Source: Apostichopus japonicus | Lineage: Eukaryota; Echinodermata; Holothuroidea; Aspidochirotida; Stichopodidae | Length of the DNA stretch: 64,000 nucleotides | Reading direction: 5' to 3' | Assembly (NCBI RefSeq): GCF_037975245.1 | Contig: NC_092569.1 | Span: forward strand, 27,107,168 to 27,171,167 | Part shown: positions 1,022-56,142 of the stretch, piece by piece | Position numbering within the stretch: the first letter of the stretch is position 1 | Layout of the letters: every line of letters begins with the position of its first letter | Program-made: the position numbers and the translations under genes | Notes under the pieces: generated by a model | Database searches by the model: none | Told to the model about the DNA's origin: nothing | Seen by the model: the letters and a program-made list of their open reading frames with translations, nothing else

Positions 1022-4000
1022 TCATAGGAAGGGCGTAATGGCTGCTAACGTGATGACAGCAAGGTGTACTCGCAAATGACTGCCATTTGATCCACCTGTT
1101 GGTAAAATTGAACAATGATTAGATGTTATTCTTCAAAGAAATTTACTAGTTGTTAGCAAGCTTTTATATTTACACAATGTCATTTATTTATCAAGAGACG
1201 GTAAAACTATCATAATGAATGAACTTACAAGTATGTCGACAAAACTATAGTTGGTGCATTTGGCATTACAAATACATTTTTTTTTTTACAATTCATATAT
1301 AAAATATTTATTCACGGGCTTCTGTATGTGTTAGCTTTGTTTCCGGTAAACAGTAATACTCATTGGCATTAGAAATAAATCCTATTTATAAATAGAACAA
1401 CATATTGAAGCTTCTGTGTCGTCATGACTTTCAAATTACTGGATGATTATATGTTTGTATTAAATAAGATATCATAGCTTCCGGTTGGATGGGATCTTGG
1501 CATTTGCTTACCTCTTTTAGTAGTAGGATGAACCTTATCTGTTTTACTCCCTAAAGTATTCCTGTGTACATTCTTGTCATTCAATGTCGGCCTAGGCGTG
1601 TTCGTAGTAGTACTACCTGTAGTAGGACTATATATCTTCATCTTCGTCGTTGTCGTCTTTGGAGTGGTTGCTACAGTTGTGGTTGCTACAGTTGTGGTTG
1701 CTACAGTTGTGGTTGTAACAATGTCTTTGACACATTTTGGAATTGAGCCAGACCAATGATAGGTGTCCGTTGCGTCATCCAAAATACACTCAACAAGTGC
1801 ATTATTATTCAAATGGAAACCTTCATCACAGTTATACTCAGCTAACATGGCAGTGTGATTAATCGTGCCGTGGTTAGGCGGTGGCAATTTGGTGCAAAGT
1901 GTTTCTAATGTAAAAAACAAGGAAAAGGTCTTGTCAAATATTTAAAATGTTGGGTGCATGGGTGTAAACCATACCGGTACTCTGGCCGATTGGATTATGG
2001 CGGTGCATTGAAATGACAAATGATAATACTCGGTTTTTCAAGGAGGCTCTTCTGAGGGGATGGACATTCTGATGGCTCGACTGGAGATACACAGTAAGGT
2101 TAAAATCATAGGTACCTCTATTTGGAAAATAAAAATGTAGAGTTGTTATTAGACTAAAGAGAAAACTAATGAAAGAGAAAGATTAAATAAAGATACTGAG
2201 TTAAATCTATTATTAAAATGGTGACAATAAGGTCAATTAGAATAGGAAAATCCAACAATCATAGCCAGAAAATAAAACTCAAGTGAAATGGGAGGATAAT
2301 AAGTTATGTTTTGATCCTTTATACAAATAATAATGGACAGTATAACATGTAAAGTATTGATTTTAGTGACTCACCAGTGACAGAAAAATCTACAAAAATT
2401 GTCTTTTCTTGAAATTCCGTGTCGAGTAAGATCACTTTATACATCTGTTCATGCGTGTGCTGAACATTTTTAATAACTAGTGATCCGGTTGGCAACATAT
2501 CATATTCGTGGCTGTCATATCCTCGCCCGAATTTCATCCCACTTTCAGATCTAATCAGTGGTTCAATGTCGTCGTGCTCTTCAAACCAATACACCCCTTC
2601 ATTTTCTGGGTTGAAGCAACAACTTATCACGCCCTCTGTATGCAACCGTCCAGTCACTCTAGATGGACAATTTTCTAAAAAAAAAAAAATCAAGTCTTAT
2701 GAACAAAAATGTATTTAAGAATAACTTAGTCTTGTTAAGTGAAGGCAAAAACTGCAGAAGTACAAAAAAAGATTTATGAGTAGTTGTTATATTTTGCTCT
2801 GTGATGTAGTACGGTTGCTCAAATCTATGAGATTTCTCCGTTATCGCGATCAAATTCAACCAGAAAGAAACAGGTTTACCATTGCAAGTGTCATAAGTCA
2901 AGCTTGGAAAAACATCATCACCTTCGCGAATGTGTTGATTTTAACGAATTTCAATACCAATAAATAATTGTGAAATTATCTGTGGAAAAGTCAGAGAATA
3001 CAACACTGACGTTTCCAAGTTACTTTTATAAATTTAATTGGTTTCGTTGAGACTATTAAATGGCGTTCGGAAAATTTGGGGAAATACACGCGTAGTTACC
3101 GTACAAAACGTTCCATTTCAGATTTACAAGTTACACCAAATTGAATGATATTGCTTTTTGTATACTTGAAAAACTTGTTTATTTCGTGAAATTGTATCGC
3201 TATTACACGAGGTATGACACCGCAATGTCCAACTTTCTCAACATTGAAATATGTCATCATTAAAATCATAAAAATGTTTTTAATATATATTCTTCTCAAG
3301 CCTTTTTATTTTGCTTCATTGATTTAATGTTATACAAAATATGATAGCGCAAATACCAAATATTCTCGAGCTTGAAAATATGTTATCTTAATATCACATA
3401 GATATTTGTCCGTTCGTGTATGCAGTAATCAGTTGAGTTTGCCGACTCACCAGTAACAGAGAAGTCCACCGTGAATTCGTCATCTCTAAATTCCGAATCG
3501 AGAAGAATTACTGTATATTGCTGGTTATTAGTGAATTGGGTGTTCTTAATAACGAGTGATCCATTTTGTAATACGTCATATTCGTGACTTTTGTAACCTC
3601 TACCAGCCTTATATCCACTCTCTAATCTAATCAATGGTTCGTCATCATCAGATTCTTCAAACCAATACACGCCTTCAAAGTTTGAATCAAAGTCACAAGG
3701 TAGGAAGACACGCTCTCCGCAAAAGCCACTAACGTGAGGTGAGCAACGGTTTCCTGCGAGTGTAAAAATATAAATAAAAACAAAACTTATTTTAATTTAG
3801 AGGAACACTTTAAGAGAATTGTGATATGAGGTTCTCTTGTCGAAATGCTTAATACACGCGATTTTCAACAATCACAGCGTAAGGACAAGTGTTTACTTTA
3901 TTGTAATATTCCCCGCTGAAGAGCACTCGTACCGACAGTTTGAGTACATAAAAGTATGTGTTAGAATCAATATGACGACATAAACTTGAATTAAATAGTG

Positions 4001-4187
4001 ACATTGTTAAATTTAAAGATGCCAGAAAACTCGTCATTTTGGTAGTATTAGGGGTTTAGCACAGATTGACGTATTCTCTTAATAGGGCGATTTCAATAGA
4101 AAACATACCATTCGCTGAACCAAGGAAAAGTAATAGAGTAACCAGAAAATATATGCCGACTGCTCTTTTCCAGCCAGAGAATTCCAT
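1022..4187 (-). CDS. Gene A: GPI-anchored Ig-like/Sushi surface protein (5 coding exons)
   Basis: Coding exons, in transcript order: 4187-4109 (signal peptide), 3753-3451 (Ig-like 1), 2674-2375 (Ig-like 2), 1904-1512 (Sushi plus Thr-rich stalk), 1095-1022 (C-terminal tail). All junctions are GT/AG and all introns are phase 1; the sum is 1149 nt, 382 residues. The start MEFSGWKRAVG opens a hydrophobic leader. Each Ig-like domain has a B-strand Cys, a C-strand Trp (VYWF) and an E-strand-like GSLVIKN. The Sushi domain shows four Cys with LPPPNHG, GFHLN and the W..P.C ending. The stalk has VATTT repeats. The last exon encodes GGSNGSHLRVHLAVITLAAI and stops after TPFL, a small-residue site followed by a hydrophobic end typical of GPI signals, with no cytoplasmic part. 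An acceptor-like CAG near 4210 suggests a 5'UTR intron. The ligand is unknown. A third Ig exon is present only as a fragment (2036-2090). Confidence 0.8.
2036..2090 (-). pseudogene. Remnant of a third Ig-like exon in gene A
   Basis: About 55 nt matching the first part of the intact third Ig exon of gene B (14058-13765), including the CPSP start. Just downstream the sequence jumps into the head of a tRNA-like SINE that lies several hundred bases away in gene B. The rest of the exon and its splice donor are missing, so the exon cannot be used. Because neighbouring exons are all phase 1, splicing Ig2 straight to the Sushi exon keeps the frame. Confidence 0.75.
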
Positions 4188-12358: not shown

Positions 12359-15300
12359 TCATGTATTTAAGAAAAGGAAGGACGTAATGGTTGCTAACGT
12401 GATGACAGCAAGGTGTACTCGCAAATGACTGCCATTTGATCCACCTGTTGGTAAAATTCAACAAATGTTTAGATGTTGTTCTTTAAAGACGTTACTAGTT
12501 GTTAGCAAGCTTTTATATTTACACAATGTAATTTATTTATCAAGAGACGGTAAAACTATCATAATGAATGAACTTACAAGTATGTCGACAAAACTATAGT
12601 TGGTGCATTTGGCATTACAATAACTGGAAATCTGTACAATTGAAATATATAATATTTCTTCATGGACTTCTGTGTGTGTTAGCTTTTTTTCCGGTAAAGA
12701 GAAACACTCATTGGCATTGAATAAATCCCATTCGTAAATAAAACAAAATATTGAAGCAAATGTGCCGTCATGACTTTCAATTAACTTGATGATTATATGT
12801 TTATATTAAATACGATGTCATAAAAAAACATTTCTTGACAAGCTTCCGGTTGGATGGGATCTTGACATTTGCTTACCTTTTTTATTTGTAGGATGAACCT
12901 TATCTGTTTTACTCCCTATAGTATTCCTGTGTACATTCTTGTCATTAAATGTCGGCCTAGGCGTGTTCGTAGTAATACTACCTGTAGTAGAACTATATAT
13001 CTTCATCTTCGTCGTTGTCGTCTTTGGAGTGGTTGCTACAGTTGTGATTGCTACAGGAGTGGTTGTAACAATGTCTCTGACACATTCCGGAATCGGGCCA
13101 GACCAATGATAAGTGGCCGTTGCTTCATTCAAAATACACTTAACAAGTGCATTATTATTCAATTGGAAACCTTCCTCACAGTTATACTCAGCTAACATGG
13201 CAGTTTGTTTAACTGTGCCGTGGTTAGGCTGAGGCAAGTTGGTGCAAAGTGTTTCTAATGTGAAAAAAAGGAAAAGGTCTTGGCAAATATTTGTAATGTT
13301 GGGTGCATGGATGGAAGCAATATCGGTGCTGTGGCCGATTGGATAAAGGTGGTGGCAATTGAAGCAATGAGGCTTAGCAATAGGAAAGTTCGGGGTTCGA
13401 TTCCCGGCCGGGTCATATATTAAGGTGGGCTTTTCATCCAAGAGGAATCTACGGCTTTCCCATCTGACATGACTTGTAAATTGAAAATATTCAAAATTTG
13501 AGTTAAATTGTTAAATTGGGAGCCAGACGACGTGCAAGTTGTAATCCATAATCTCTGCGGGTTTCTCCCACATTTCGTGGTCGCTTAAGCGTCGTAATAT
13601 AACTGCTGATTATTGATTATTCAACGCAACGTCTATCATAGATCAACACATAACGCCACTTCGTGTGACATTCGTTTCCCCCATACCTTATTGTGATAAT
13701 GCAGCATTACAAATGACTATGGCGTAACAACATACAACAACATACAACTTAATTCAAAGTTTACCTGCTTCAAAGTCTATTTGGTAAGTAAATGATTTAT
13801 TATTCACATCAACCAAAATCACTTTGTATCTGGCGTTGTTTTCTTCGGAAACTCGGCGTATAATAAGTGATCCAGTGTTGGATACGTCGTACTTGTCGTC
13901 TGTGAAACCAGGCCCAGAGATGGTCGAACCTTCTCGTTGAATCAGAGGATCATTTTCAGAATTTTCAACAATCCAAGAAACTCTTTTAAAGTCAGTATTG
14001 AAATGACAAATGATAATGCTCGGTTCTCCAAGGAGGCCTTTCTGAGGAGATGGACATTCTGATGGTCAGAATGAAAATATACAGTAAGGTTAAAATCATA
14101 GTTACCTCTATTTGAAAATGAAAATCTAGAGTTGTAATTGATAAAGTAGAAAGATTAAATAAAGATACTCAGTTAATCTATTATAAAAGGGTGACAATAA
14201 GGTCAATTATAAGGAAAATCCAACAATTATAATCAGAAAAAAACTGCGGTGAAATGGGAGGATAATAATTAATGTGTTGATCCTTTTAACATATCTTGTG
14301 ACACTTATTCTTAATTCTGTTGGTCTGGACCTTGTCCATATAAACAATTGTATTTAGTTTTGTGGTAAAACATTCACTGAGCTACGCTGGCTATTATCTG
14401 TAGCTTTCAGTGGACAGTACCAAAATGTAAAATATCGATTTTAGTGACTCACCAATGACAGAAAGATTTACGAAAAACGTATTTTCGTGAAATTCATTGT
14501 CGAGTATGATCACTTTATATATCTGTTCATGCGTGTGCTGAACATTTTTAATAACTAGTGATCCGTTCGGCAACATATCATATTCTTGACTGTCATAACC
14601 TCTACCATCCGTATAACCATTCTCTAATAAAATCAATGGTTCTTCACCATCAGATTCATCAAACCAATACACGCCTTCAAAGTTTGGATCAAAGTCACAA
14701 GGTAGCATGACACTCTCTCCGCAAGAGCCAATAACGTGAGGTGAGCAAAGGTTTCCTGCGAGTGTAAGAGTAAAAATTAAAACAATATTTATTTTAAGTT
14801 AGAGGAACTCATTGTTAGAATTCTGAAGTGAGGTTCTCTTATCGAAATGCATAATACACGCCCTTTTAAACAGTCACGGAGTGAGGACAATTACTTAAAA
14901 GTATGCCTTAGTATCAATTTGGTGAGAAAGATTTGGATTAATTGGTGGCATTGTTAAATTTAAATATGCCAGTTTACTCGTCATGTTGGTAAAATTAGGG
15001 TTTAGCACTGATTGACGTATTTCTTCATATGGCGATTTCAAAGAAAAAATACCATTCGATGAACCAAGGGAAAGAAGTTTTGTGGTAAAACATTCACTGA
15101 GCTACGTTGGCTATTATCTGTAGCTTTCAGTGGTCAGTGCGAAAATGTAAAGTATTGATTTTAGTGACTCACCAGTAACAGAAAAATCAACGAAAATTGT
15201 CTTTTCGCGAAATTCAGTGTCGAGTAAGATCACTTTATATATCTGTTCATGCGTGTGCCGAACATTTTGAATAACTAGTGATCCGTTTGGCAACATATCA

Positions 15301-17239
15301 TATTCGTGACTGTCATATCCTCGCCCGAATTTTTCCCCACCCTCAGATCTAATCAGTGGTTCAATATCGTCGTGCTCTTCAAACCAATACACCCCTTCAT
15401 TTTCTGGGTTGAAGCAACAACTTATCACACCCTTTGTATTCAAGCGTCCAGTCACTCTAGAAGGACAATTCTCTGAAAAATCAAGTAGAATGAAAAAATG
15501 TATAGTTAAGAAAAATTTGGTCTTGTTAAGTTAAGGCTCAACAATGCAGAAGTACAAAAAAAGGGTTATAAGTATCTTTTATTTTGCTCTGTGATGTAGT
15601 ACGGTTGCTCAAAACTATGAAATTTCCCCGTTATTGTGATCAAATTCAACCAGAAAGAAACAGGTTTACCATTGCAAATGTCATAAGTCAAGCTAGGAAA
15701 AACATCATCACCTTCATGAATGTGTTGATTTTAACGAATTTCAATTCCGATAAATAATTGTGAAATTATCTGTGGAAAAGTCAGAGAATATAGCAAAGAC
15801 GTTTCCTAGTTACTTTTATAAATTTAATTGGTTTCGTTGAGACTATAAAATGGCGCTCGCAAAATTTGGTCGACAAAATTTGACTTACACGAACGGAATA
15901 CAGCTGCGGTGTCTACGAGTGCAGTACGCAAAGCTGGGGAAATACACGCGTAGTTACCGTACAGAACGTTCCATTTCAGATTTAAAAGTTACATCAACTT
16001 GGATGTTATTGCTTTAGTTTTCTACTTGAAAAACTTGTTTATTTCGTAAGATTGTATCGCTATTACACGAGTATGATACCACAATGTCCAACTTTCTCAA
16101 TATTGAAATAGGTCATCTTAAAAAATCATAGAAATGTTTTTAATATAAATTCTTCTTTAGCTTTTTTATTTGCTTCATTGATTTAATGTTATACAAAATA
16201 TGATAGCGCCAAAATCAAATATTCTCCAGCCTTCAAATATGTCATATTAATATCAAATTGATATATTTTTTAAAGTTCACGCAGGTCTATTTTTGTCCGT
16301 TCGTGTATGCAGTAATCAGTTGAGCTTGCCTACTCACCAGTAACAGAGAAGTCCACCGTGAATGTTTCATCTCTAAATTCCGAGTTGAGTAGGATTACTT
16401 TATATTGCTGGTTATTAGTGAATTGAGTGTTCTTTATAACGAGTGATCCATTTTGTAATACGTCATATTCGTGACTTTGGTAACCTCTACCAGACTTATA
16501 ACCATTCTCTAATCTAATCAATGGTTCTTCACCATCAGATTCATCAAACCAATACACGCCTTCAAAGTTTGGATCAAAGTCACAAGGTAGTAAGACACTC
16601 TCTCCGCAAGAGCCACTAACGTGAGGTAAGCAAAGGTTTCCTGCGAGTGTAAGAAAAAATATAAAACAATACTTATTTTAAGTTAGAGGAACTCTTTAAA
16701 AGAATTGTTATATGAGGTTCTCTTGTCGAAATGCATAATACACGCAATTTTTAACAGTCACCGCGTAAGGACAAGTGTGTTCTATATTGTATTATTTCCG
16801 GCTTAAGAGCCTTCGAACTGACAATTTGAGCAGTATGAAAGTCTTCATGTTAGTTCCACAGATATACAGGTTATGAATATTGTTCGTATTGACAGTACGA
16901 TTGCTTTACGATTGATAATGGAGGAGAGGGGTGGGGGCGGCTGGGGAACATAGAGGAATTAGAAATGGCCTAACCAGTATGATCAGCTGTTATAAATACT
17001 TAAAAGTATGCGTTAGAATCAATATGACGACATAAACTTGGATTAAATAGTGACATTGTTTAATTTAAAGATGCCAGTAAACTAGTCATTTTGGTAGTAT
17101 TAGGGGTTTAGCACTGATTGACGTATTCTCTTAATGGGGCGATTTCAATAGAAAACATACCATTCACTGATGCAAGGAAACGTAATAGAGTAACCAGAAC
17201 ATATATGTCAAATGCTCTTTTCCAACCAGAGAATTCCAT
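12359..17239 (-). CDS. Gene B: GPI-anchored protein with four Ig-like domains and a Sushi domain
   Basis: Coding exons in transcript order: 17239-17161 (signal peptide, MEFSGWKRAF), 16640-16338 (Ig-like 1), 15472-15173 (Ig-like 2), 14755-14453 (Ig-like 1'), 14058-13765 (Ig-like 3), 13254-12877 (Sushi plus Thr-rich stalk), 12444-12359 (GPI-type tail ending ITSFLFLNT). The sum is 1743 nt, 580 residues; every intron is phase 1 with GT/AG ends. Ig-like 1' is mosaic: its first half resembles Ig-like 1 and its second half (NVQHTHEQIYK) resembles Ig-like 2. The Ig-like domains have the B-strand Cys and C-strand Trp but lack the usual F-strand Cys (YKV in place of YxC). A relic of a signal-peptide exon in the Ig2-Ig1' intron suggests the gene formed by fusion of two tandem units. 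An alternative is two separate genes, but the relic has no start codon. Confidence 0.75.
13325..13625 (+). repeat. tRNA-derived SINE (class II tRNA-like head)
   Basis: The head has A-box-like TGGCCGATTGGATAAAGG, a long variable-arm-like stretch, and a perfect B box in GGGGTTCGATTCCCGG, as in Leu/Ser-type tRNAs. An unrelated body follows to about 13625. It sits in the intron between Ig-like 3 and the Sushi exon of gene B. In gene A only the first ~25 nt of the head remain, joined to the Ig3 remnant, so the SINE predates the deletion there. The 3' boundary is uncertain. Confidence 0.6.
15053..15074 (-). pseudogene. Truncated signal-peptide exon relic inside gene B
   Basis: About 22 nt matching the end of the signal-peptide exon (LGSSNG) with its donor changed to GTATTT, followed on the downstream side by intron sequence like that of 17050-17155. 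The upstream part, with the initiator ATG, is replaced by sequence like the 3' flank of an Ig exon (compare 14350-14440 with 15075-15170). It marks an unequal recombination junction between tandem gene units. Confidence 0.7.
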
Positions 17240-18546
17240 TTTTCTTGAATCGTTCAACCTGGTACTAAATGAATGATATAAGTTTTTTTCAACAATTTAC
17301 AACGACAATTTTATACTGGATTGTTGCTTGGCGATATGAACATTTTGTGTTTCTGGTGACAAAGTCTGTATTATTCTGTATCCGTTATCCAGGTAGTAGA
17401 TACATGATGATCAAAAGGAGTAGACTTTTGGGAAAGATAGTTTTAAACTTTCTTCATCAATTCTGCCAATTTCCACGATATCTGTCAATCCGTTAATCCA
17501 TGTTAGATTTATAAATCTCTAGTATCAGTTCTTATGTTTCGGTATTAATATAGCACAGCATAGTTCCTTGAAATAAATTTGAATCACACTTCCAAGTTGA
17601 ATGGTATGCCACGTACACTGTGCCACTCAGTTGCGATTACTAACTTTTTCATATATTCATGGTGGCAAATACAACGTTTGCTTAGTGATGCTTCAGTGAT
17701 AAAATACAATTATGTATTCCAAAAGAAAATGCCAATCAATTGAAGCAAAGGTCGTGATTGTATTTACATTGTAAGTTCAAAATTCAATGGAAATCAAAGG
17801 GGTTAAGATTTTAGAATTTGTTTACCGAGAAACGGCTTTTCAATCAGTAAGGTTTCGCATACCAGATAAATGAGTGTACTTCGGATATTGTAAAACCTAT
17901 AGTCGCAGAAACGAAACTAGTCTACATAATATTACAGTACCGTGATTAAAGGTCAAGTGACACGTAGACTTGACTTTACATAATATTAAACTTAACAATT
18001 CTTACATTAAGAAGAACCCAACACCGCGATTTTTTTTCCGTCTCCAAAGGGGTAGAAATCGGTAAAAATTACTATTACGTTATAGACTCAGTGACGTCAC
18101 GGGGGGGGGGGGGGAGCGCAGAAGAGTGCAAACTGTATATGTTCTGCGAAGTGCATTGGGTATGTAGAAATCTCAAACTTCTCGAAAATATTACCTTTTT
18201 CAGCAGTCTGTTACAAGAAAGTTAAGATTTGGATTAAGATGAAAAATCAAAAATTGATACATAAGACAATCAACAAAACATCTAATGACTTGTTTTTCCA
18301 TAAATTCCTTGCATTTTCTTCCTATCAAGCAACATAAACTCCGCAAAAATCGGCTAGATTGACTCGTTAAGGGAAAGTCGGAACAAATGACGTCATTTGT
18401 TTACCAAGTCGAAAGTGCATGATATCGTCGCATGGAACTGCTTCTTGCTACCACATACAGTTTCTGTACACACAATATAGTACGCATATATACACAGCAC
18501 AGCATAAACAGCATAGCTTATACATATCGCGAAATGGCTGCCGGTG

Positions 18547-19281
18547 GCATTGACACACAGTGCAGTTGCTGATAGGGATTGTTGCGAGGTTGTTCCAACT
18601 TGTAATGGATTTGACGTTTTACCTGTGGAGGAGTTGCGTGATGTTGATGATGGGAATGAAGTCTCCCAGGAGGGAAATAGTGAGTGGCTAGTAGTGGACG
18701 AAGTGCGTGGTGATTGTGATGTGATAGAAGATGGTAGTGTGGTTGTTAACAGCGGTCAGTGGGGACAGGAGAAGTCGAAAGCAAGAATGGTATTGTGTGG
18801 GGATTCACTAGTACGGTATGTAGACCGAGAGTTCTGCAGTGCGGATAAAGCAAAAAGGGTTTGGGTATGTTTGCCAGGTGCTAAAATCCAGGATGTCAGT
18901 AAACGGGTTAACAAAATCGTGTCAGATGAGGAGGTGGTTGTGGTCCAGGTAGGCACCAATAATGTGCAGAAGGAGTCACAAAACATTATTCAGTCTAGGT
19001 ACCACGAGTTGAAGTGTCGACTAGCATCAACTCGGGCTAAAGTTGTCATATGTAGTTTGTTGCCAAGATTTGACAACAAGGTCCTGTCAGATAAGATTGT
19101 AACTTTGAATGGTTTATTGTATAGACTGTGTGCCGACTTCGGCTTCACATTTGTTGACATTTGGTCATCTTTCCAGGGTAGAAGGGATTTGTTCGCCAGG
19201 GGATGGTTTGCACCTAGCTAATACTGGGGCCTCGTTGTTTGGTAGGATGGTGAATTACTCTGTTGAACAGCTATGTTTAAA
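18547..19281 (+). pseudogene. LINE ORF1 with SGNH/GDSL esterase-like domain
   Basis: Shows the block I motif CGDSLVRYVD (catalytic Ser), block III-like QVGTNNV (Gly/Asn), and DGLHLANTGA (catalytic Asp-His) about 180 residues later. The last block lies in the next frame because of a one-base insertion near 19200, so ORF1 reads to VEQLCLN and stops near 19281. Esterase domains in ORF1 are established for CR1-clade LINEs. The open frame continues leftward to 18544 through the junction, so the true N-terminus is probably lost by 5' truncation. Confidence 0.7.
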
Positions 19282-19430
19282 CTAAATTGGGGGGCGATGA
19301 GGTCAGGAATAATTTTTGATAAGGATTATGTTCCTAGTGGAGGCGATTATAGCGTTTTGAAAGGAAGAAAAGTGATAGTCATAGTTCTAACTTTAGGAGG
19401 CATTCTAAGGTACATAGTTTCAGGGATAAA

Positions 19431-20422
19431 ATGAAGATTGTCTTTACCAATGCTAGCAGTATTCGTAAAAATTTAGCTGAATTTACTGTACTTCTTGAGG
19501 ATCTGAAACCGGATGTGTTTGGTATCACCGAATCTTGGTTAAGGGAGGACATTGATAGTGCTGAGGTTTCTCACCCGGGGTATGTTGTGTATCGTCAGGA
19601 CAGAAGGGATACTCATAATGGGGTTGGTGGGGACTTTTACTGTATATTAGGGATGACATTGTAAGTGTTGAGAAATATCAGTTGCAAGGGGCTTTTGTTA
19701 ATTCTGTCTGGTGCGAGTTGTCCACCAACAACTCCAAGAGGTCCAGGGACGTTATCACTGTGGATGTTGTTTACCGCTGTCCTAACAGCAGCGATGATAA
19801 TGATGTCATGCTGTTTGATTCAATTAGAAAGGCTGCCAAAGGTGATGTTGATATAATGGGTGACTTTAATTTTCCTGACATTAATTGGATAGATGGTTCT
19901 AGTAGTAGGAAGGGTAGTAATTTTCTAGATGTTGTGGAAGATTGCTTTTTACATCAACATGTTACTTTCCCTACTAGGGGGGATAACATCCTGGATCTTG
20001 TTTTGAGTTTTAATACAAGCAATGTTGCTGATTTGACGGGTCTAGGAAAACTAGGAACTAGTGATCATGATATACTAGCTTTTGATGTTGTTTGCAAAGT
20101 CGTAAATTCTGTTAGCAATGAAAAAGTCCCTGATTTTACGAGATCAGATACAGAGGCAATTGAAACTTTACAAAAGGGTACAGATTGGTTTAATTTGTTT
20201 AGAGATATGAGTTCTTCTCAGTCTTGGATTTGGTTTGCTGATAAATTAAAGGTCATTATGGAAAATCATGTTCCGTGGAAGAATCGTCGTCGTAAAAGCA
20301 GTATGCCTCACTGGATGAATAAGAAAGTTAGATGTGCAATTAGGCAAAAACGTAGAATGTGGAAGTTGTTAAGGAGACTAAATCTGAATCTCTTTTGGCC
20401 AAGTTTAAAATTCATCAGCTGA
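19431..20422 (+). pseudogene. LINE APE-type endonuclease region
   Basis: Begins MKIVFTNASSIRKN and shows DVFGITESWL (the metal-binding Glu), GDFNFPDINW (catalytic Asp and Asn) and TSDHDIL (the Asp-His pair), the standard APE endonuclease order. The first part (to about 19640) and the second (from 19682) are in different frames, showing a frameshift near the expected GVLLY motif. A further frame change occurs near 20360-20420, leading to the spacer before the reverse transcriptase. Confidence 0.8.
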
Positions 20423-20734
20423 AGGTAGAATGCTTAGTCTCTGATGCAAAATTGAATTTCGAAACAAGCATTGCCCTAAAATTAAGGATTTCCCAAAAGC
20501 CTTCTTTTCTTATGTCAGGTCAAAGCAGAAAGTTAAAGATGCAATTGTTTCTCTTAGGGCACCACAGGCTGACAATATAGTTACTGATAGTCAGGATCTT
20601 GCAGATCTTTTGAACAACTATTTTGTGTCGGTTTTCACAAGGGAAGATGCGAGTAGTATTCCAGATTTTCAGGGGGGGGGGGGGGCAGTGATAGGCCTAA
20701 ACTGGATACGGTCTTATTTTCGGATGAGGTTGTC

Positions 20735-28802: not shown

Positions 28803-29423
28803 CTAACCACAATGCACAGTTAGCCGCCATTGATTATGCAATACGCCTGAAGTTCCTTCTTGATGACGTCAGGGAGAAACAACTCTCGTAACAGTCTTTT
28901 ACAGTGTGGTATACTAACAGTGGAAAATATTCAGATGTGGTTGATAGGGCTAGAACGTTAGAAGGGCTTGCAATTTCCTATAAGCACAGCGCAGTTTAAA
29001 ATATTAACGAGGCACCTGTAGGTCAAGTTACGAAAACATCAAGAGTTCTCTTTTCCAATTTTTTTTGGGGTTAAAAAGAGGCATAGGCTACGCTAAAAGA
29101 GCACACTGAAGCTAAGCCTATAGTGTACGCTAAAGTAATAGTAACAATGTATCAATGTATATCATCTTCTTCCCTATTTACTCTTTAGTTTTCCCTTGCC
29201 TGTAATTCCTTTGCTGTGAATATCGGATGAAAATTATTAGGGTGCGGCCTTGTCATTGAACCTTCTTTGATTTATTTCGGTTTTGTTGAGAAATTCTAAT
29301 GAAATTGTTGTTTACTGAATGTGCTTTAGTACATCAGTTGTACGGAGAGAGTGCTACTGCTCGATTGAGTTGTTCCTTCCTGACGTCATCAAAGAATGAC
29401 GGCTTACTGTGCATTGTGGTTAG
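28803..29423. mobile_element. Short element with inverted ends (MITE-like)
   Basis: The left arm CTAACCACAATGCACAGTTA and the reverse complement of the right arm (CTAACCACAATGCACAGTAA) match. Both arms continue to TTGATGACGTCAGG and ACAACTC, about 70-90 bp each, the left with ~24 extra bases. There is no coding potential between them, so it looks non-autonomous. No clear target duplication was identified. The 16-bp minisatellite starts about 20 bp beyond its right end. Confidence 0.6.
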
Positions 29424-29442
29424 GCCTTAAGAGCAACTTAAA

Positions 29443-29953
29443 AGTGCAAGGTGACGATAGTGCGAGGTGACGATAGTGCGAGGTGACGATAGTGCGAGGT
29501 GACGATAGTGCAAGGTGACGATAGTGCGAGGTGACGAGAGTGCGAGGTGAAGAGAGTGCGAGGTCACGAGAGTGTGAGGTCACGAAAGTGCGGGTGACGA
29601 GAAGGCGGGGTGACGAGAGTGCGGGGTGACGCGAGTTCGAGGTGACGAGAGTGCGGGGTGACGAGAGCACGAGGGGACAAAAGTGCAAGGTAACGAGAGT
29701 AAGAGTTGATGAGAGTAAGAGGTGATGAGAAGGCGAGGTGGCTAGCGTGCGAGGTGACGAGAGTGCGAGGTAACGAGAGTGAGACGTGACGAGAGTGCGA
29801 GGTGACGAGAGTGCTAGGTGACGAGAGTGCGAGGTGATGAGAACGCAGGGTGACGAGAGTGCAAGGTGACGAGAGAGCGAGGTGACGAGAGTGCGAGGTG
29901 ACGAGAGTGCGAGGTGACGAGAGTGCGAGGTGGCGAGAGTGCTAGGTGACGAA
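29443..29953. repeat. 16-bp minisatellite, ~32 copies
   Basis: Tandem array with consensus GTGCGAGGTGACGAGA. Variants (GACGATA at the left, GGGGTGAC in the middle) are clustered, suggesting local amplification. Minus-strand translation gives an open frame repeating every 16 residues simply because the 16-bp unit has no stop in that frame; it is not considered a gene. Confidence 0.9.
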
Positions 29954-30280
29954 TTGTATCTCCCCAGTTTGGAGAAAATGTGGTTATCCAAAAAAAAATT
30001 GCCCCTGCCAATAACATTTGTTTAAGAAACACAACCATACCACAGTTTTATCCATTTTTTGCATTCTCCTCTTACTCATCTCCCCCACCATTCGTCCACC
30101 CTTCCCCATCCTCCCCCACACTCCCACCCTCCCCACCCCGATTGATGCCATGGTAACTGTAGTATTTGTAGTACAAATTCTATATGCATATATCGATAAT
30201 CTGGTCATAGAATCACTGTATGTTGCTTGTGTTTGTCTATTTTTTCCTTAATCGTATTCCTTCATTTGTCTTCCTGACAG

Positions 30281-36690: not shown

Positions 36691-39600
36691 TCACTGAAAT
36701 ATCTTCAGCAACGAAAGTGAGGTAATTATTGACATCATGACCAGGGACGCTGATGACGTAAACAATTTAGGTGTCCCTAAAAGTGAGAGTAAAGAAAACC
36801 GAAAGAGAATTATAAATTGAAGTTCACCATAGGGACGGTTTTAGTTCTTATGTATAATGTTCATATGATATAGTTCAACGCAATCTATAATCCATATTTA
36901 ATTCAAACTTTTCAGTGCAAATGCATCTTTAAATCACTGGTAAAACATCAATTATTTTCACATTTCGCTTCTTGCTAATAATTTGACATCATTTGATTTA
37001 ATCATCGGGTAAATCTCACCAGGGATTAATTAACACATCTCTGTTCTTACCACTTTCTTTTAAAGATTCAGTCTGGGTCCTTTGTTTGGTGCTCCGTTGT
37101 ACTGGGTCTGTTCGTACCAAAAAACAAAAAACAAAAAATGAGCTTCAACTGAATTTTATTAATACATGATTGGAGTGAGATAACGTTAATATATATATGC
37201 ATACCAACATAAAAAAAACTGTCATGGCGTCAATTTAAGAGGAAATCAAACTATAAATGATTTCATAACATTCAATATACTTTACATTAGGTTCAGAAGC
37301 TCTACCTTAACTATCATTAGCTCATATTACCCGTATAAAATATATAATTCATTTATAGTTAAACTACAAGAAATACCTTATATAAGTTCAGACTAACAGG
37401 AATGACTAGAAATTAACAAATATTTTTACAGCAAAATATGTCGAAATATCTCTTCCCTGCCATTTCTGAAGTTGCTTCGAATGAAACTTGGATATGATCC
37501 CTTCTGTGAAGAGCTGAATAGATAAGTACGTATAGTACGTTACATGCAGTCCTGTGGTAGTTGGTTCTACTCCCTTTGCTATCAAAAATGCCTTTCGTCC
37601 TTTCCAAAAGGCAAATAACCCAGAGATTTCAAAACATTGAAAGATATTGAATGAAGGTAACCTTTCCCGATAAAGAATACAAGTGAAGCTTTAGATATTA
37701 ATACCATTGGGCATTTATGAACTTGTTTACGTTTACGTTTATTGTAGCGCTGGGGATAAACGCCAGTGTCCAAAAAATAAGAAATTATTTCAATATTAAG
37801 ATGAACTTATACCTGTCAATGTTGGCTTAGAGGAGGTCCTTGTGGAAGCTTTGGTATTGAGTTCGTTCCTTTTTTTCGTTGTTGTAGGAATCACTATAGT
37901 AAAGTAAAACGAAAGATTATATTATGGATCTTCTAAATATATAGTGTGATCATTAGGGTCAACAAGGTGCAAACGCAATTGTTTTCTACAGTTGTGTATA
38001 AATGATTGGTTGCATTGGCGATGAACTGTGCATTTATCAGACTGCAGTGTATGTGCCAAATGCTTTCCTTTCCTCGAATTGTACTGATACCACCATTTAG
38101 ACAGATGTGACGTCTTTGTCATATGGACTTCAGTATAGATCAAATGTTAGGACACTGCCACGCACCTTTCGATGGTGCAAACAGAAATCCGGAGCAAACT
38201 ATAAAAAAGGGAACACAACATTGCCTTCCTAACCAACATTTGTTGTCCTATGGTAAGATGTTACTCTAAATACAACTCCTTCAACTGGTGCGTTTATCTA
38301 TTCCACTGTATGCAACGACATGGTTGAAGCACGACTGTTTTTCGTTTCCACAATTAAGATACGGGCATACAAGGAGAATCGGTCTACTACTAACAGACAA
38401 TGTAGACATACCCTGTTCAGCATGTCGTAAACCTTGTATGCACTTTCATCAATTGGAGAAAGTCAACCTCCAGCATGTTATTGAGAACTGGCCAATGAAA
38501 CATAGCCTATAATAAACGCCAAAAAGCATTACTGTTTAATCTGTGACGAAACTGATGTAGGCTAATGCTTAGTTTGAAAACGTTTCATATATCTACTTGT
38601 TTGGACCATCCATAGCAATTGGCCATATAAGAACTTCCTTTATGCCACATTTGTATTGCGTATCATTACAGTACCTCCCTGTCCTTTTGTTGTAGAATGA
38701 ACGATAACTTGTGTTGTAGTTTCAGTCTTTATTGGGTGAGTTGTGGATGTCCGTTTCTGCATTGTTACCTTCGGTGTAGTAGAAGGAACTGTAGGAAAGA
38801 ATAACGAGGAACTGCTTTTAAAAACGATATTATAAAAACAACGTTTTTATAAAATATGGTGAACTTGAAAATGTATTGTTGGGCAAAATGTGGTCCTATT
38901 GACCTTTGTAGTTAGAATGGAACACAAGTTTCATAATTAATGCCTTAATAACGAAGGGTTCCCAGGATGAAAGCCTTTTGTATTAACCATTTGTAAAACA
39001 TAACCCAAACATTAAACTGCCCTTCTGGTTTTGCCATAGCTTCTTGAAGCTTGACCACACATAAGCAAAATCTTGATAAAACAAATATGTATGTTCATTT
39101 TTAATTTCTCATCTCGTTTTATTAACCAGCCATTTAATTTTGAACACTGTAATATATGAATCACTGATGTCGTTTCCAACATGTGTTACAAGTCACGTTA
39201 CCATGACTGTACCTCTTTGAGCCCGTGTAGGTAGTTTTGGAGTGTCTGTGACGATAGCAGTATTGCATACAGGGCTCATTCCATTCCATACATGCTGTGC
39301 TGTGTTGTAGTTGTAGCCACAAGTAAGAAACTCTTCACCAAGAAGCCTATATCCCGGGTTACATCTAAATCTTGCAACAACACCATTTTGATCGACTTCA
39401 CCGTTAGCTAGTGATGGCATAGTGTTGCATAAAGTATCATTTCCTGTAACAAAAGGAAAGTGAATGAAACGAGTTGTTCAATCCAGCATGGTCAAAAAAC
39501 TTAAACTTTGAAACTTAAACGGGACTCAAACCCAGGCGTCTAACTTGATAAACGGACACTCTAACCATGTTTGAAACCAGTAAGGAAGGTCTTTGTCACC

Positions 39601-42258
39601 ATTTGTGAATCCTAAGGCCGGATCTCGAAAAGGGATATATTTTGAACGAACCTTTGTTAGGCCTAAATGAATGCAATTTAAAACAGTAAGATAGATAGAC
39701 AGAAGGATGGAATGATAGATGGATGGATGGATGGATTGGTATTCTGCAATAAATCACTATTAAGTCTAAACTATAGACTTACTTCGGAACACCCTTATTG
39801 ATTCATCAGATCCACACTTCTGCTCACGATCTCCAGGACATGTACCGCTGCATCGGTTTTCACTCAGAGGTCCATATCGAGCGTAATCTGCATCCGATCT
39901 ACCACAGAAGCAAAACGGCGCTGATAATCCAAAGTAGGCGTAGGCTTTGCCTCCATCACTGTCGTTGCACGATTGGAAACAGTAATCCACAGTTAACCTG
40001 TTCGGAATGTATCCACCGAAGTCATGGAGTGCCTTCTCTTCAAAAGGTTTCACATCCTTGTAACATCCAAGGTATACGTAACCTGTGATATACAAGTATA
40101 TGTCATACGGTATCTAGCATAAACTCGAACACGACAATCATGTAATGGGAATGGATTTTGCATATCTTCCTTTGTATTGCATCCCGCATCTCCCTAGTAG
40201 CTCGTAACGGTTTATGATATTATCTCAGGGTAGGAAGATCGTCGCAGCAATTCATTTAGTTAACATTTAAATGAATATGCATATGGAATAACAGGAGAAA
40301 TTTACATATTCTACATACGTCTCTAATATTTAGATAATCATTTGATATTAACACCCCTTCACTAATCCAGAAACTTTAAGGATATAATGTCAAATGTTTC
40401 TCAACGCTTTATGTTTCCTTTTTAACATTGTATCATGTTCTCGAGATACGTCTGGAATGTTCATTTAGCGGCAATGTACCCTCTAAGAATATTGTCTTCT
40501 TCTGTGGATAATTTATTTGTGTGGCACAACCGGCAGCAAAACAGACAAATATATATCAACTGTAATGAGATGGTACTCTTTATGTTGGTGACAGTTAATT
40601 TACTAAATATATAATTTTAAAGCTTCCTGTCTTCCCGAATAATCATTCAATCACGGTTTTGTTTTAAAACAACTTACAAACATGTTTTGAAAGGTCAAAG
40701 ATTAATATATTCCTTTAATGTGGAAACATTCCATTGAATCTTATGATTATCAATTAACCCGCAGAATGGATTTTGTTATTGATTACATAGGGAAGGTTAG
40801 TAAGTATCCTGTTATCATTGCTAAGAGGTTTCTACCCGGAACTTTGCACGAGCTTTTCCAGTATATATATACAGTATGACCTTGAACAATGAACGTAGGC
40901 GATGCAGTAGACAAAGTAATCTACTTTTCAAAACAAAATCATAGTTCATATCAAAACGGTCCCTTTCTTTTTGACATGCATATTGTGACGCTATTCGTAA
41001 AACGAAAGTCCATCCCATAGCTTTTCTATACATCCTTACCAAATAACAGCGGTCATTGCACTCAAATTAGTAAAAGAAAAAAAACATATATTATATCAGT
41101 GGTTGACCAAGTAGGTTGTGTGGCACTTATTTTATTGACGCCAACGCCCATGTAGACGAGGGAGTACAACTTTTAATAGCGGAATAGTGCAATATGAGGC
41201 ACGTTGAGGCTAGAAGTTACGTTCATAAATACGTTTACATGCAGGAGGTTTGCTATAATAACTGCTTCAAAACTTTGGTGGGGTTGACAAATGGATGGGT
41301 ATCCGGCCCAACTCATGGATTTGCGCCTGTAAAATAGGCCCTGGTCTTCTAGTCGTTTTTACTACTATACTTATCAAAACATATTCCTTAATTGAATGCA
41401 AAGTGTTTTAGAACTTTAAACGATGTATTGATAGTTCAGATAATGGGAAAATTTTAGCTATGAGATCCGTTGTCTCATTTGATGGAGGTTGAAAGAAAAC
41501 GCTTACACCTGAAGATATTTTGGCTTTTAAAAATCATGTCAGACGGACGTTGTCATTTTGTCAGCGTTTCAAGACAAAGTGTCAGTAGGAATAAACTTTA
41601 ATTTACATTATGAACATGTTAAAGGTTTATTACAACTGAGTAAAAACTATATTGACAGTTATTAATATTGACAATTTATGTGCCTGACCATGATAAACAT
41701 TTCGAAAAAAATACAGATTAATACCGCGTTAGTCAAAGCAAATAAGTATTTTTTAACTAGTGAGTGATTCATGTAGTTCAATGTTGTGATATTTAGATTT
41801 GCTTAATGCTCTACTTCCGCTATATACGATAGAAGCAATCAAAATTCAATGAGAGAGAAAATATACTTTAACTTATTACAGTACTTTCCTCGTAATTAAA
41901 TGACATGATTTTATTTCTTTATTTTAAGGCAGATATAGTAATACAAACTATGTTATAGATAAATCTAGCGATTGTCGTTAAATCAGGAGAGACTTACATG
42001 AATGGAGGGAGTTACGCACCTAGGACGATTCATGTATTAGATAACTGTAAAAGCATAGCCGGCTCTAGACGAAATATCTGTTTATATATACACATATAAA
42101 TATATTCAGACCAAGAAGGTATCCAAATTGTGATTGCTATGATGAGCTTGTTTACATATCACATTACCTGTTTGTGACCAGCTGCATGGAATTCCGATCA
42201 ATAAAAACAGAACCGTGATCTTCGAAATCATCATGATATGGTTGGAATGTGATGGCAT
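36691..42258 (-). CDS. Gene C: GPI-anchored WSC/Sushi surface protein (6 coding exons)
   Basis: Exons in transcript order: 42258-42168 (signal peptide: a hydrophobic run ITVLFLLIGIPCSW), 40082-39783 (WSC), 39443-39213 (Sushi), 38788-38675 (Thr/Ser/Lys stalk), 37107-37051 (short Gln/Thr-rich stalk exon), 36776-36691 (C-terminal tail). The sum is 879 nt, 292 residues; all introns are phase 1. The WSC domain starts YLGCYKDV and has eight Cys, including FCFCGRSD and KCGSD; WSC modules bind carbohydrate in fungal and animal proteins. The Sushi domain has CNTMPSLANGE, the GYRLLGEE turn and W....PVC. The last exon gives TPKLFTSSASLVMMSIITSL and then LSLLKIFQ, a hydrophobic end without a cytoplasmic tail, typical of GPI signals. 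The Sushi exon donor (GTACAG) is the only phase-1 choice; a phase-0 donor lies 11 bases on. The 37051-37107 exon is the least certain. Confidence 0.75.
39505..39575 (-). repeat. tRNA-like SINE fragment
   Basis: On the minus strand ATGGTTAGAGTGTCCG resembles an A box and GGGTTTGAGTCCCGTTT a B box, spaced as in tRNAs. It lies in the intron between the WSC and Sushi exons of gene C. No paired acceptor stem was found, so it is treated as a SINE head. A (GATG)n-type stretch lies nearby at 39688-39737. Confidence 0.45.
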
Positions 42259-45144: not shown

Positions 45145-49623
<4,479 letters not shown>

Positions 49624-52773: not shown

Positions 52774-55700
52774 ATGAGGTTGGTGATTACTTTGGCGATA
52801 TATTTACTTTTTGAGACTGCTACTGGTAAAGAGGAAGAAAGTTGTAAGTGTTCTTTATTATCATATTTGTTTACCTTTTCCTTGTAGATAGTTGTGTCCG
52901 TTGCTCGATTGTTGCAAACTGCAAACGACTCTGTGTGGTTAGTAAATGATTGTAACGGTATAGCATACGTAACCCATCTATGTTACGTTTTTCTTGATAC
53001 AGTTGACGATTGACCGTAATTAGTTCCAGATTCCACGTCGCTCTAGATTCTATCAAGTAAATATATTACAATTTACCAGTGTAGGATTAAGGTTTATAAA
53101 AGATTAACACTGTTGCCAAACATCACAACATTTAATGATAATAACTCCTGTTAAACGGGTTCATTGTAGTTAAGTAGACTATGCTTTAATAATCAGCTGT
53201 AAAGGTAAATCTAGGCCAATCAATGAGATACCATCATTCCTATCGTAAGATTTCACAAATCTACTGATCTTAATTTTACAGTAAAATTAAGATCAGAAAA
53301 GTAAAAGTTAAGAAGTTTATTTCGAAATTAGACCATTACTGGGAAGGTGGGTTGGATAACCTATCCTCGGAACTCTTAACGTTATGTTCAACATGGCAAC
53401 TAATGATTCGGCCATGGGTGGTACTCCATCATTAAATATAATTCACATGGAATGGAAAATTATTACTTCTTGTTATAGTGAATTAAAACAGCATTTGAAA
53501 ACGTCAATTGAAAGTCTGAACTAGACATGAGATAATAGATCGATTAAATCGATTAATTTGAAGGATTCTATAATGTTATTTCAAATAGCAGTTCTTGATA
53601 ATATACCATTTACATCACTTTTGATAGATCAGCAAGTTTTTATGTAAGAACTTGCAATATGCAATGGTATCCACGTAAAGATCATGCGACCTTACGGATA
53701 CAGTTAACTATTCGTATGAATTTGGCCTATCAAATCGTCTTCAAATGTTAGCCTTCCTTCGAAACTTATGATAAGCAATGTAATTTCCATGCCAAGATGA
53801 TAATTTTGTGAAATTATATTAAGATATAGCTACGTTTGACTACCTCCATGGACATAATCTAAACAAGACTAGTAATTTCTACTACTGAACACCAAGTCAT
53901 CTGTCATCACCAAGTCATCTGATGCAAAAATATATTTAGATAATCCTTACTCATAATTTACATTTTTGTTAACATTACATTTTGAATCATAAATTTCTTA
54001 TTTCCAAATTTGTATTTAGATTCATACTTAGGTTGCTATCATAATTCAATTGGTAAAACATCAGAGACTAACCCACCAGATGGTAAGACGTTTAAAACAG
54101 ACGATAAGATAACAGAAAATAAATGTCGGTATTACTGCTTTGGAGAGAAAGGTTTACCGTACTTTGGTATGACAGTGGGCAGTAGATGCTACTGTTGGAA
54201 TTCATCTGCTGGATATCAGGTTTATGGGAATGTACCTCTTGCGTCATGTGATCACAACTGTCCTGGAAATGAGAGCAACATATGTGGAGGCGCCAGAGCA
54301 ATATCAATTTATGGAGGTAAGTTGTATCCTATCACACTATTTTAAAATGTTTAAGAATAAATCTAGTTGTTTAACACTTCACAAAAAATGTGATAAAAAA
54401 CGAAACAATTGCATTCCCTCATTTTTGAATACATTCAGTTAATAACACAACTACTCATATTTGTGCTACTATTTGGCAATGGGTGTGTTGTATAACTGGA
54501 TATGTACACGTTAAGTTCTAATCATCTACGTTTCATTTCGAATTGCTTCATAATTATTCAATAACGTGGTTATAATTTTCAGATTCACTCGTAGAAGAAA
54601 ATGTCGACGAAACTAGATGTCCTAAAAACTTTACGCAACAAAATGGCCGTGTGGTCAGCCTTAATGATACTAGGGTTACTTTTTCTTGTGATTTCGGATT
54701 TGTTCTGAAAGGCGATGAATGGATGCGTTGTAATATTACGTCATCTCAAGATTACAACTGGATCGGAGTTCAACCAACTTGCGAAGGTATCACGAAAATG
54801 TATAATTTATTAATCATTATTAATCATGAGTTGGGATAACAAAGGATTAAAAACAATATTTTCACATTTTTGCATGCACGTAATGCCCTGCTTTGGGTAG
54901 GGTGGTGTGAGGGTGTGTTGGGGGTGGGTTGTGGATACTTTTTTTATGATATGGACTAAACTGAGTCTTATCTAATAATTACTAAAGAAGAACCATTCAT
55001 GCTAGTTAAAAAACATTTCTTACATTGGTGCCAGCTTTGTGAAGGTGCGCACACATACATGATATGTATTCGTACGCGTGCATTTCTGTGCGTCTATAGA
55101 TGCGGGATTTTTGTTTTCAGTACGAACAGTAACTTAAGAGATCGTATTCTATTCAATTAAGTCCAAACGTAAGCTTGATATCTATCATTTCCTCCTTTCA
55201 GATTACAGATTCCATATGATGATTGGATTGTTGTCCTTAATACTTCTGCTATTGGGTGTCCTATTAACTGGTTGTTGTGTCAAGTATGTTTCGTATGTTT
55301 CAATTTCTCACCTATCTGTTTCTTAAATAACAAGTCCAGGCACTAATATTACGCCACAATTTAGATCCACATTTTAGTAACTCGTGTCGTTATAAAATCG
55401 AGTTCCAGTCCTGAGTCTGCGCAGAGAATTTAGTATTGGTCAGACATTTTCTGTAGTAATCAATTTATAGGAGTTCGTTTTCTATGTTTCTGTGTGTTAT
55501 ACTTACGGTAAGTGCATAATTAACGGTCATTTGGGGTGATTCGGTACATTATAAACAATTTTGATTTTAATTGTTGACAGAAGTTCATAATATACAACTT
55601 AAAATTATTTAGCTATTAGTTTTTTTTTGCCCTGAATAGTGTTGAAGTTTTGTATAACTTACTAATACGAACCCCTTTCTTGACTTTCAATCACATAAAA

Positions 55701-56142
55701 CACAACACCTAAGACGTTTCAATTCTTTTGCAAACAAATTGTATTATGATGGTCATATATGCAGTTTCATATAATCAATGATGTGTGTTGTTTTCTTCAT
55801 AGGCAAACGTGTCAACGTTCATTTGCATCTCCCCCTCCTCTTCCTCCTCCTCGTCCTCCTCCTCGTCCTCCTCCTCGTCCTCGTCCTCCCCCTCCCCCGT
55901 CAAAAAGTGTTTCTTCAACATCATTATTGGACGATCAATTTGTGACGAGAACATTACGAGACAACGGTTTTTATTCAACATATCATAAACGAGATAGCCA
56001 ATCGGACTCTAAAGAGAGCAGTTCTGAAAGAGGTTCTACCAGCGATCCTTACATCTATGGAAACGAAACGAATATATCCATTACATCCTTTGAAATAGAT
56101 ATCGAAAACCAAAGATCGCCTGATACCATTTACATATACTAA
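52774..56142 (+). CDS. Gene E: WSC/Sushi membrane receptor with proline-rich, Tyr-bearing tail (5 coding exons)
   Basis: Exons: 52774-52843 (signal peptide MRLVITLAIYLLFETATG), 54020-54316 (WSC), 54583-54786 (Sushi), 55202-55283 (transmembrane), 55803-56142 (tail to the stop). The sum is 993 nt, 330 residues; the ectodomain introns are phase 1 and the last is phase 2. WSC: YLGCYHNS, CRYYCFG, RCYCWNSS, CDHNCPGN, ICGG. Sushi: CPKNFTQQNG, TFSCDFGFVL, W.G.QPTC. Membrane helix: MMIGLLSLILLLLGVLLTG. The tail carries RPPPRPPPRPRPPPPP, which fits class I SH3 ligands (R-x-x-P-x-x-P), a Ser-rich stretch, and Tyr sites FYSTY, DPYIYGNE (Y-x-N, the Grb2-SH2 type) and the C-terminal TIYIY. It therefore looks built for tyrosine-kinase/adaptor signalling; this is inference. 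A polyA signal AATAAA lies at 56310. Confidence 0.82.

Follow-up and report, generated by a model that had tools for sequence, protein, structure and literature searches.

Sequence comparison shows that the predicted V-set domains of two genes, A and B, in a sea cucumber gene cluster are related to a large domain family whose exons precede NACHT exons on chromosome C16 and, at some loci, on C12. Both genes lie in the 64,000-nucleotide stretch of Apostichopus japonicus DNA analysed here (the window), in a cluster on chromosome C9. COX1 of this genome reads sensibly with AAA as Asn, as in the echinoderm code, and a sponge origin was rejected. We put at about an even chance the explanation that we prefer, namely that exon shuffling has given rise to a tandem cluster of genes for immune-type surface receptors, in which A and B would encode tethered recognition proteins and two neighbours, D and E, WSC-bearing transmembrane (TM) receptors; A and B are best read as putative GPI-tethered proteins that would serve membrane NLRs as partners or decoys.

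The gene cluster and its exon kit

The original prediction of five intact multi-exon genes holds: A to E, at 1022..56142, could all be built as spliced models running from start to stop without an internal stop (proteins of 382, 580, 264, 253 and 324 aa, respectively), with GT-AG boundaries at 21 of 21 introns and phase 1 at 19 of them, the two phase 2 introns being the last of D and the last of E. The gene models hold up, and the set does not end with them, belonging instead to an array longer than the window, with further members in both flanks. To the left lie a third Ig-Sushi-GPI-type gene (Z, whose Ig and Sushi ectodomain was recovered by tblastn), a Sushi-only fragment (F) and a locus (K) at which a WSC exon is followed by an IgV-family exon on the same strand, possibly a WSC-Ig gene; to the right lies an additional WSC-TM gene (H).

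Gene A, on the minus strand, opens with a leader exon for the signal peptide (4109..4187; an open reading frame with a GT donor, phase 1, its peptide identical in Z), followed by two IgV-like exons (3451..3753, phase 1-1, and 2375..2674, from the spliced model), an exon for a Sushi domain and Thr-rich stalk (1512..1904) and a last exon with a GPI-type tail (1022..1095), its frame ending on a hydrophobic stretch. A truncated remnant of an Ig4 exon (2004..2069), which resembles B Ig4 for 22 aa and then breaks off, is skipped in the model. Gene B, on the same strand, has a leader (17161..17239, spliced model), four IgV-like exons (16338..16640, 15173..15472, 14453..14755 and 13765..14058, the last three from the Pfam V-set search and the model), a Sushi and stalk exon (12877..13254) and a GPI-type tail (12359..12444). 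Full-length matches to the A Sushi and stalk exon in the genome search are A, B, Z and F only, and the same four share the tail exon. The models of A and B each have one C-terminal hydrophobic stretch, at which the protein ends; GPI-type calls throughout are based on hydropathy and on the lack of a cytoplasmic tail beyond that point.

Gene C, also on the minus strand, carries a WSC exon (39783..40082), a Sushi exon (39213..39443) and a Thr-rich stalk (38675..38788, spliced model), between a tentative leader (42168..42231; alternative starts 42234 and 42258) and a tentative GPI-type tail (36691..36776, one of eight rows from a scan of 4 kb), both taken from a signal scan of a single copy without paralogue support. 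Of the predicted GPI tails in A, B and C, that of C is provisional. The plus-strand genes differ in their ends: D consists of a leader (45145..45226, spliced model), a divergent WSC exon (45634..45933), a modelled TM exon (48033..48141, phase 2 out) and a cytoplasmic tail with three tyrosines (49353..49623), and E of a leader (52774..52825; alternative donor 52843), a WSC exon (54020..54316), a Sushi exon (54583..54786; alternative acceptor 54595), a modelled TM exon (55202..55283, phase 2 out) and a proline-rich cytoplasmic tail with one YxN and no ITIM (55803..56142).

The domain search that the original prediction proposed was run with Pfam on all five proteins, and it placed V-set in A and B (29.2 and 74.5 bits, the latter over four stretches; cut-off 26) and WSC in C and E (41.7 and 46.2 bits; cut-off 27.8) above their cut-offs, Sushi in A, B, C and E just below (19.0, 19.7, 20.6 and 19.3 bits; cut-off 20.7), and NACHT in none. 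An HMM built from six Sushi domains of the genome, with A, B, Z and F excluded, recovers the Sushi of A (E=7e-10) and B (E=6e-9); in D, no Sushi was found even with an HMM of the window's own Sushi domains. The WSC domains of D and H, below detection by Pfam, score E=3e-10 and E=2e-11 with an HMM built on 17 WSC domains located elsewhere in the genome, from which the window's own and that of H were excluded, the 17 having been collected beforehand with an HMM that included D. Of 82 WSC matches in the genome, 67 are on C9. Plasmid and phage collections, queried with a Sushi piece and with an Ig, gave no match.

The predicted common build with differing modules is therefore borne out as a phase-1 exon kit (WSC, IgV, Sushi, stalk), with a reservation for the leader and tail of C, and the models support a cluster in which GPI-like and TM ends would both be used with that one kit. 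In the sequence, phase-1 exons for leader, WSC, a distinctive V-set, Sushi and stalk occur in differing combinations and are closed off with either a GPI-type end (A, B, Z and, tentatively, C) or a TM segment and tail (D, E and H).

The V-set family and NACHT exons elsewhere in the genome

The Ig family of A and B comprises at least 150 scored exons, most of them on C16. A genome search with protein A yields 109 matches, and one that starts from the Ig at a NACHT locus at least 150, each recovering the other's loci. Of 106 scored NACHT exons, 38 are preceded on their own strand by an Ig exon of the family, as against one with such an exon downstream and none with one on the opposite strand; for the upstream count a rotation null gives a mean of 0.95 and a maximum of 7 (2000 rotations). 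On C16 the proportion is 29 of 34, and some Ig-NACHT loci lie on C12 as well. For the other 68 scored NACHT exons no Ig is listed upstream, and C16:5.1-6.2 Mb holds 27 IgV exons with no scored NACHT nearby. Chromosome C9 has none of the 106 scored NACHT matches (out of 487 candidates). In an Ig array at C9:24.57 Mb, a TM or GPI end was sought at one locus (L044), and no convincing exon was found.

At one locus (L045), open frames for an IgV, further Ig-like sequence, a TM segment and a NACHT follow in order, and its Ig and that of the window match each other in both directions. Identity between the domains of the window and Z and that of the NACHT locus is only 24-31% (alignment A4), and the latter scores 13.4 bits against Pfam V-set, under the cut-off. 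All 14 aligned domains keep the pattern C..C..W..GxG..GSLxI..V and lack the F-strand Cys; in place of the usual pair they have two invariant Cys, one preceding strand A and the other at strand B. Together these comparisons suggest that membrane-tethered and signalling receptors may share one recognition module.

An AF2 model of the first B IgV domain (pLDDT 78) finds its best folds in CEACAM and CD2 (CD2 match, TM-score 0.81, rmsd 1.8). The fold prediction is that of an immunoreceptor V-set, with CEACAM, CD2 and TIGIT as its neighbours; profile matches to the CEACAM/CD2 type reach only E=4e-4 and 1e-4. The fold matches and the Cys missing from strand F in 14 of 14 domains indicate a V-set without the B-F disulfide. 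The CEACAM and CD2-SLAM families of vertebrates likewise have V-sets without the F-strand Cys, and include GPI-anchored as well as TM proteins. There are differences too: CEACAM lacks the B-strand Cys, whereas the window family has its two invariant ones; in the window Sushi, not a C2-type Ig, follows the Ig; and the window's TM members have no ITIM or ITSM.

V-set domains serve adhesion as commonly as immunity, and many of the best hits by structure come from adhesion proteins (CEACAM N domains, CD2, CD48, 2B4). Cell-cell adhesion, in which CEACAM/CD2-like V-sets would bind one another to recognise tissue or gametes and have no microbial role, would also suit the Thr-rich stalks and GPI-type ends, yet we consider it unlikely, if the most credible of the alternatives: the same domain family stands upstream of NACHT at many loci, which points to immunity.

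Pairing, tails and divergence within the cluster

The original prediction saw in the cluster a resemblance to paired receptor families, with A to C as the tethered half and D and E as local signalling partners. Strict paired receptors have near-identical ectodomains and opposite signalling, and in that sense the resemblance is not supported. Here C and E, which have the same module order, are about 30% identical, the best figure for any ectodomain; the Ig-Sushi ectodomains of A and B are unrelated to D and have only Sushi in common with C and E; and the Ig relatives of A and B that sit beside signalling domains adjoin NACHT and lie mostly on another chromosome, C16, with others on C12. The TM exons of D and E stand; scans of their tails for ITIM, ITSM, hemITAM and YxxPhi found none in either, the first three are absent from H, and no tail is of ITAM type. 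The tail of H does hold two YxxPhi (YYVL, YMDI), a number to be expected by chance because 86% of shuffles of that tail reach it. Linkage and the common exon kit speak for local pairing all the same, as do the module order common to C and E, the two YxxPhi of H, the C Sushi exon, whose best match outside gene C is the B Sushi exon, with A, Z and F matching too, and the WSC-IgV locus in the left flank. Because D has no detectable Sushi, the D and E tails hold no ITIM, ITSM or hemITAM and the leader and tail of C are tentative, a tethered/signalling pairing of A-C with D-E is weakly supported, and we hold it to be improbable.

Genes A, B and Z have kept their exons and frames while their introns are 85-96% identical (the last intron of B and F, 95%), with dS of about 0.03-0.2 in comparisons among the three and mosaicism at the level of exons. 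For Ig2, the comparison of A with B shows purifying selection (dN 0.047, dS 0.209; Fisher p=0.001, counts rounded). If a large IgSF/WSC repertoire were simply turning over neutrally, A, B and Z would be recent duplicates lacking any special task; this would accommodate the omega of 0.6-0.9 in most young pairs outside Ig2 and the existence of remnants (F and the broken Ig4 of A); open exon frames in A, B and Z despite intron divergence of about 4-15%, and the constraint on Ig2, make it a poor candidate. Positive selection on Ig1 was considered and set aside: the B-Z omega of 2.36 is suggestive without significance (Fisher p ~0.3-0.5), and the remaining Ig1 pairs give 0.71 and 0.84.

Known receptors and a candidate tethered system

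Combinations of the kind seen here had been thought not well described. This agrees with literature searches on Ig-Sushi-GPI and WSC-Sushi proteins in sea cucumbers; it does not stand for the wider pairings, Ig with Sushi being known in Botryllus and Ig with NACHT in A. japonicus itself. WSC-domain proteins include WSC1, polycystin-1 and kremen, to which C and E (by Pfam) and D and H (by the genome-specific HMM) are alike in that domain and unlike in order, WSC-Sushi and then a GPI-type end or TM. A link from WSC to a GWAS of papilla number was rejected, since the WSC genes named in the accessible part of that study are WSCD1/2-like and on Chr14, another locus (PMC12784826).

Holothurians are solitary animals, which tells against an allorecognition-like cluster, linked and polymorphic, as for the Ig plus Sushi TM receptors of Botryllus. 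Those receptors, fester and FcoR, form a linked, duplicated cluster, fester having three TM segments and FcoR tails an ITIM, a hemITAM or a Y-x-x-I/L/V core, according to the sections consulted (PMC12065747). The Ig plus Sushi ectodomains of A, B and Z in a linked cluster, and their exon mosaicism, are reminiscent of this arrangement, but the window has GPI-type ends and WSC modules, with neither the three-TM form nor ITIM or hemITAM, and the Y-x-x-L/I that occurs twice in the H tail is at chance level; we regard this explanation as the least probable of all.

Closer to hand are two membrane receptors of the same species with the Ig-TM-NACHT layout, AjNLRC4 and AjNLR-new (PMC8699970, PMC13133943). 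As described in the available text, AjNLRC4, whose Ig-like domain is at 31-132, dimerises through its Ig domains, and its extracellular Ig part binds bacteria as well as LPS, PGN and mannan (PMC8699970). The window's V-set relatives likewise stand upstream of TM and NACHT frames, and the L045 order resembles the published AjNLRC4 in layout, the level at which they were compared; from layout only, we infer that the AjNLRC4 Ig domain may belong to the same V-set family. The window proteins differ in having Sushi or WSC in place of any NACHT, and GPI-type or short TM tails.

Under the preferred explanation of immune-type receptors, A and B would provide tethered, non-signalling recognition of microbial glycans or of the V-sets of Ig-NACHT phagocytic receptors, and might consequently serve as a co-receptor, a decoy or a soluble opsonin, while D and E would be glycan-binding WSC receptors whose tails could work through SH3 ligands or tyrosines. 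More tentatively, and on balance doubtfully, one V-set family may be put to three uses, in GPI-tethered Sushi proteins, in a WSC-bearing receptor and as the ectodomain of membrane NLRs in a chromosome-scale array, with tethered forms competing or cooperating with NLR forms for the same ligands and the two halves unlinked.

The published A. japonicus Ig-NACHT receptors are each treated as a single gene in the portions available (PMC8699970, PMC13133943); our results suggest that Ig-NACHT genes form a sizeable family, concentrated on C16, and that proteins with a related recognition domain are tethered as well. The window genes thereby supply concrete candidates, open to testing, for co-receptors or decoys, and an instance of V-set immunoreceptors outside vertebrates with a predicted fold close to CEACAM and CD2. 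If the three-use reading is true, this echinoderm would have a receptor system in which the tethered and the signalling halves are not linked.

Predicted receptor genes of the window and their neighbours

Spliced models bear out the original prediction of five multi-exon genes: in A to E the ATG-to-stop frame is open in 5/5 and all 21 introns are GT..AG, with intron phase 1 throughout, apart from a final phase-2 intron in D and in E. Splice sites were picked by simple scores together with frame, and these are models, not transcripts. On the minus strand lie A (leader, two IgV domains, Sushi with a Thr-rich stalk, GPI-type tail), B (leader, four IgV, Sushi with stalk, GPI-type tail) and C (tentative leader, WSC, Sushi, stalk, tentative GPI-type tail); on the plus strand lie D (leader, WSC, TM, tail), whose WSC domain was detected with a genome-specific HMM only, and E (leader, WSC, Sushi, TM, tail). 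The GPI-type tails predicted for A to C and the TM helices with tails predicted for D and E appear in the models, that of C tentatively.

Three further elements share the window: in the interval from B to C, a plus-strand non-LTR retrotransposon (18517-22216) whose OSK/GDSL-like, endonuclease and reverse transcriptase ORFs each occupy their own open frame; a 16-bp minisatellite of 32 copies (29443-29952) beneath long minus-strand ORFs at 29404-30021; and a U2 snRNA match (27989-28065, minus strand; 48.4 against a cut-off of 46) of only 77 bases, probably a fragment.

Adding 40 kb on each side of the window, searched by tblastn, and then 20 kb more on the left extended the cluster. In the left flank, gene Z (window positions -25334 to -29329) has a leader, three Ig, Sushi+stalk and tail exons, read as separate exons, and F (-37585 to -38472) has Sushi+stalk and a tail, with neither leader nor Ig found there by tblastn. 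Farther left, locus K comprises a D-like WSC exon (C9:27060158-27060460), a downstream IgV exon on the same strand (within C9:27058026-27058367) and a TM candidate 10 kb further on, which together form a candidate gene. Locus H, in the right flank, pairs a D-like WSC exon at 72107 with a TM (74325-74403) and a tail (75630-75927) found by signal scan, again as separate exons. Among the matches scored in the protein A search of the genome, those to the Sushi+stalk exon at full length fall in A, B, Z and F only; the top match of the C Sushi exon outside C is the B exon (E 5e-10), and for E the nearest match elsewhere is to a distant WSC (E 6e-7).

The window spans C9:27107168-27171167 of a 671.58 Mb assembly of 35 contigs, one of which, C35, is a mitochondrial genome of 16,099 bases with proteins that make good sense in the echinoderm code, where AAA in COX1 would be Asn. 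Across the genome, 67 of 82 WSC matches fall on C9 (binomial p 4e-69, a value that ignores tandem duplication). Dense WSC exon groups occur at C9:9.08-9.68 Mb and C9:19.8-20.3 Mb; the loci read within these groups (L005, L022, L023, L024) each hold two WSC exons within ~2 kb. At C9:6975894-6977571 (minus strand) a WSC-like match is followed, 1.3 kb downstream, by a weak Sushi-like one (E 0.003).

Among the papers listed in PMC searches, none was found that describes a WSC+Sushi or Ig+Sushi+GPI receptor from a sea cucumber or states how large the Ig-NACHT set is; a term search of the H. glaberrima genome preprint (PMC13228809) found none of the terms immunoglobulin, WSC, sushi and V-set.

Divergence of A, B and Z

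Where compared, the introns of A, B, Z and F are 85-96% identical. Omega (dN/dS) is 0.71, 0.84 and 2.36 for the first IgV exon, Ig1; 0.22, 0.35 and 0.79 for Ig2; 0.73 for Ig4; and 0.59-0.92 for Sushi+stalk. Among the three pairs submitted to Fisher's test, only Ig2 A-B departs from neutrality (p=0.001); Ig1 A-B and Ig1 B-Z do not. The leader and intron 1 of Z are nearest to A, its 5' flank is also close to A, and its Ig1 is nearest to B (dS 0.025), a mosaic that suggests gene conversion at the level of exons.

IgV exons beside NACHT exons

Protein A has at least 109 matches in the genome (108 of 650 first-look candidates scored), and some of them form an array at C9:24.39-24.63 Mb. With A, B, Z and F set aside, 95 rows remain, 44 on C16 and 23 on C9. 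When the query was the IgV exon from a NACHT locus on C16, at least 150 matches reached E<=0.001 (150 of the 328 candidates were scored), recovering the Ig2 and Ig3 exons of the window and the C9:24.4-24.6 array.

NACHT (PF05729) has at least 106 matches (106 of 487 candidates scored), distributed as 45 on C12, 34 on C16, 18 on C7 and 9 elsewhere, with none of the 106 on C9. The 95 protein A rows have 12 same-strand NACHT partners within 20 kb downstream, against none upstream or on the opposite strand and a rotation null averaging 0.38 (max 5; 2000 rotations). With the matches of the C16 IgV query, 38 of the 106 NACHT exons have a same-strand IgV within 25 kb upstream, one has it downstream and none on the opposite strand (rotation mean 0.95, max 7; 2000 rotations, lengths of contigs other than C16 approximated). 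This count used 134 Ig entries, after merging two pieces of one exon and dropping 15 C9 rows because C9 has no scored NACHT. By contig, IgV lies upstream of 29/34 NACHT exons on C16, 7/45 on C12, 1/18 on C7 and 1/2 on C10. The remaining 68 of 106 have no listed Ig upstream, and the 27 IgV-family exons at C16:5.1-6.2 Mb, perhaps belonging to another receptor type, have none of the 106 scored NACHT matches nearby; both argue against a simple IgV-NACHT story.

Locus L045 (C16:37372900-37378900) carries, on a single strand, unspliced open frames that run from an IgV through further Ig-like stretches and a TM stretch to a NACHT domain (1.3e-19). Its IgV matches the window profile at E 5e-17 and scores 13.4 bits by Pfam, under the cut-off; the further Ig-like stretches score at or below Pfam cut-offs.

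Predicted V-set fold and proposed roles

The C16 V-set was modelled from 14 rows at pLDDT 90 (all five models 87-90), and that of the window, represented by B Ig1 in an alignment of 9 rows, at 78, two of its five models being poor (41 and 35). Among PDB folds, the window model comes closest to CEACAM N domains and CD2/CD48, and the C16 model to TIGIT, CEACAM and CD2; for C16, CD2 has the top TM-score among the 50 listed (0.81, rmsd 1.8). Both listings also include CD80, PD-L1, TIM-3 and T-cell receptors, so the predicted folds resemble immunoreceptor V-sets as a broad class. Agreement from sequence profiles is weak (CEACAM1 best, E 4e-4 and 1e-4). A Cys before strand A and another at strand B are kept in 14/14 aligned domains, and the F-strand Cys is absent from all 14.

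Of the published Ig + NACHT receptors of Apostichopus japonicus, AjNLRC4 is reported to drive phagocytosis, its recombinant extracellular Ig part binding bacteria, LPS, peptidoglycan and mannan (PMC8699970); for AjNLR-new the reported layout places NACHT outside and Ig inside (PMC13133943), so published topologies within the Ig-NACHT type differ. Homology leads us to propose that A, B and Z may act for Ig-NACHT receptors as GPI-tethered partners or decoys; C, D, E, H and K would be WSC-based glycan receptors built from the same exon kit.
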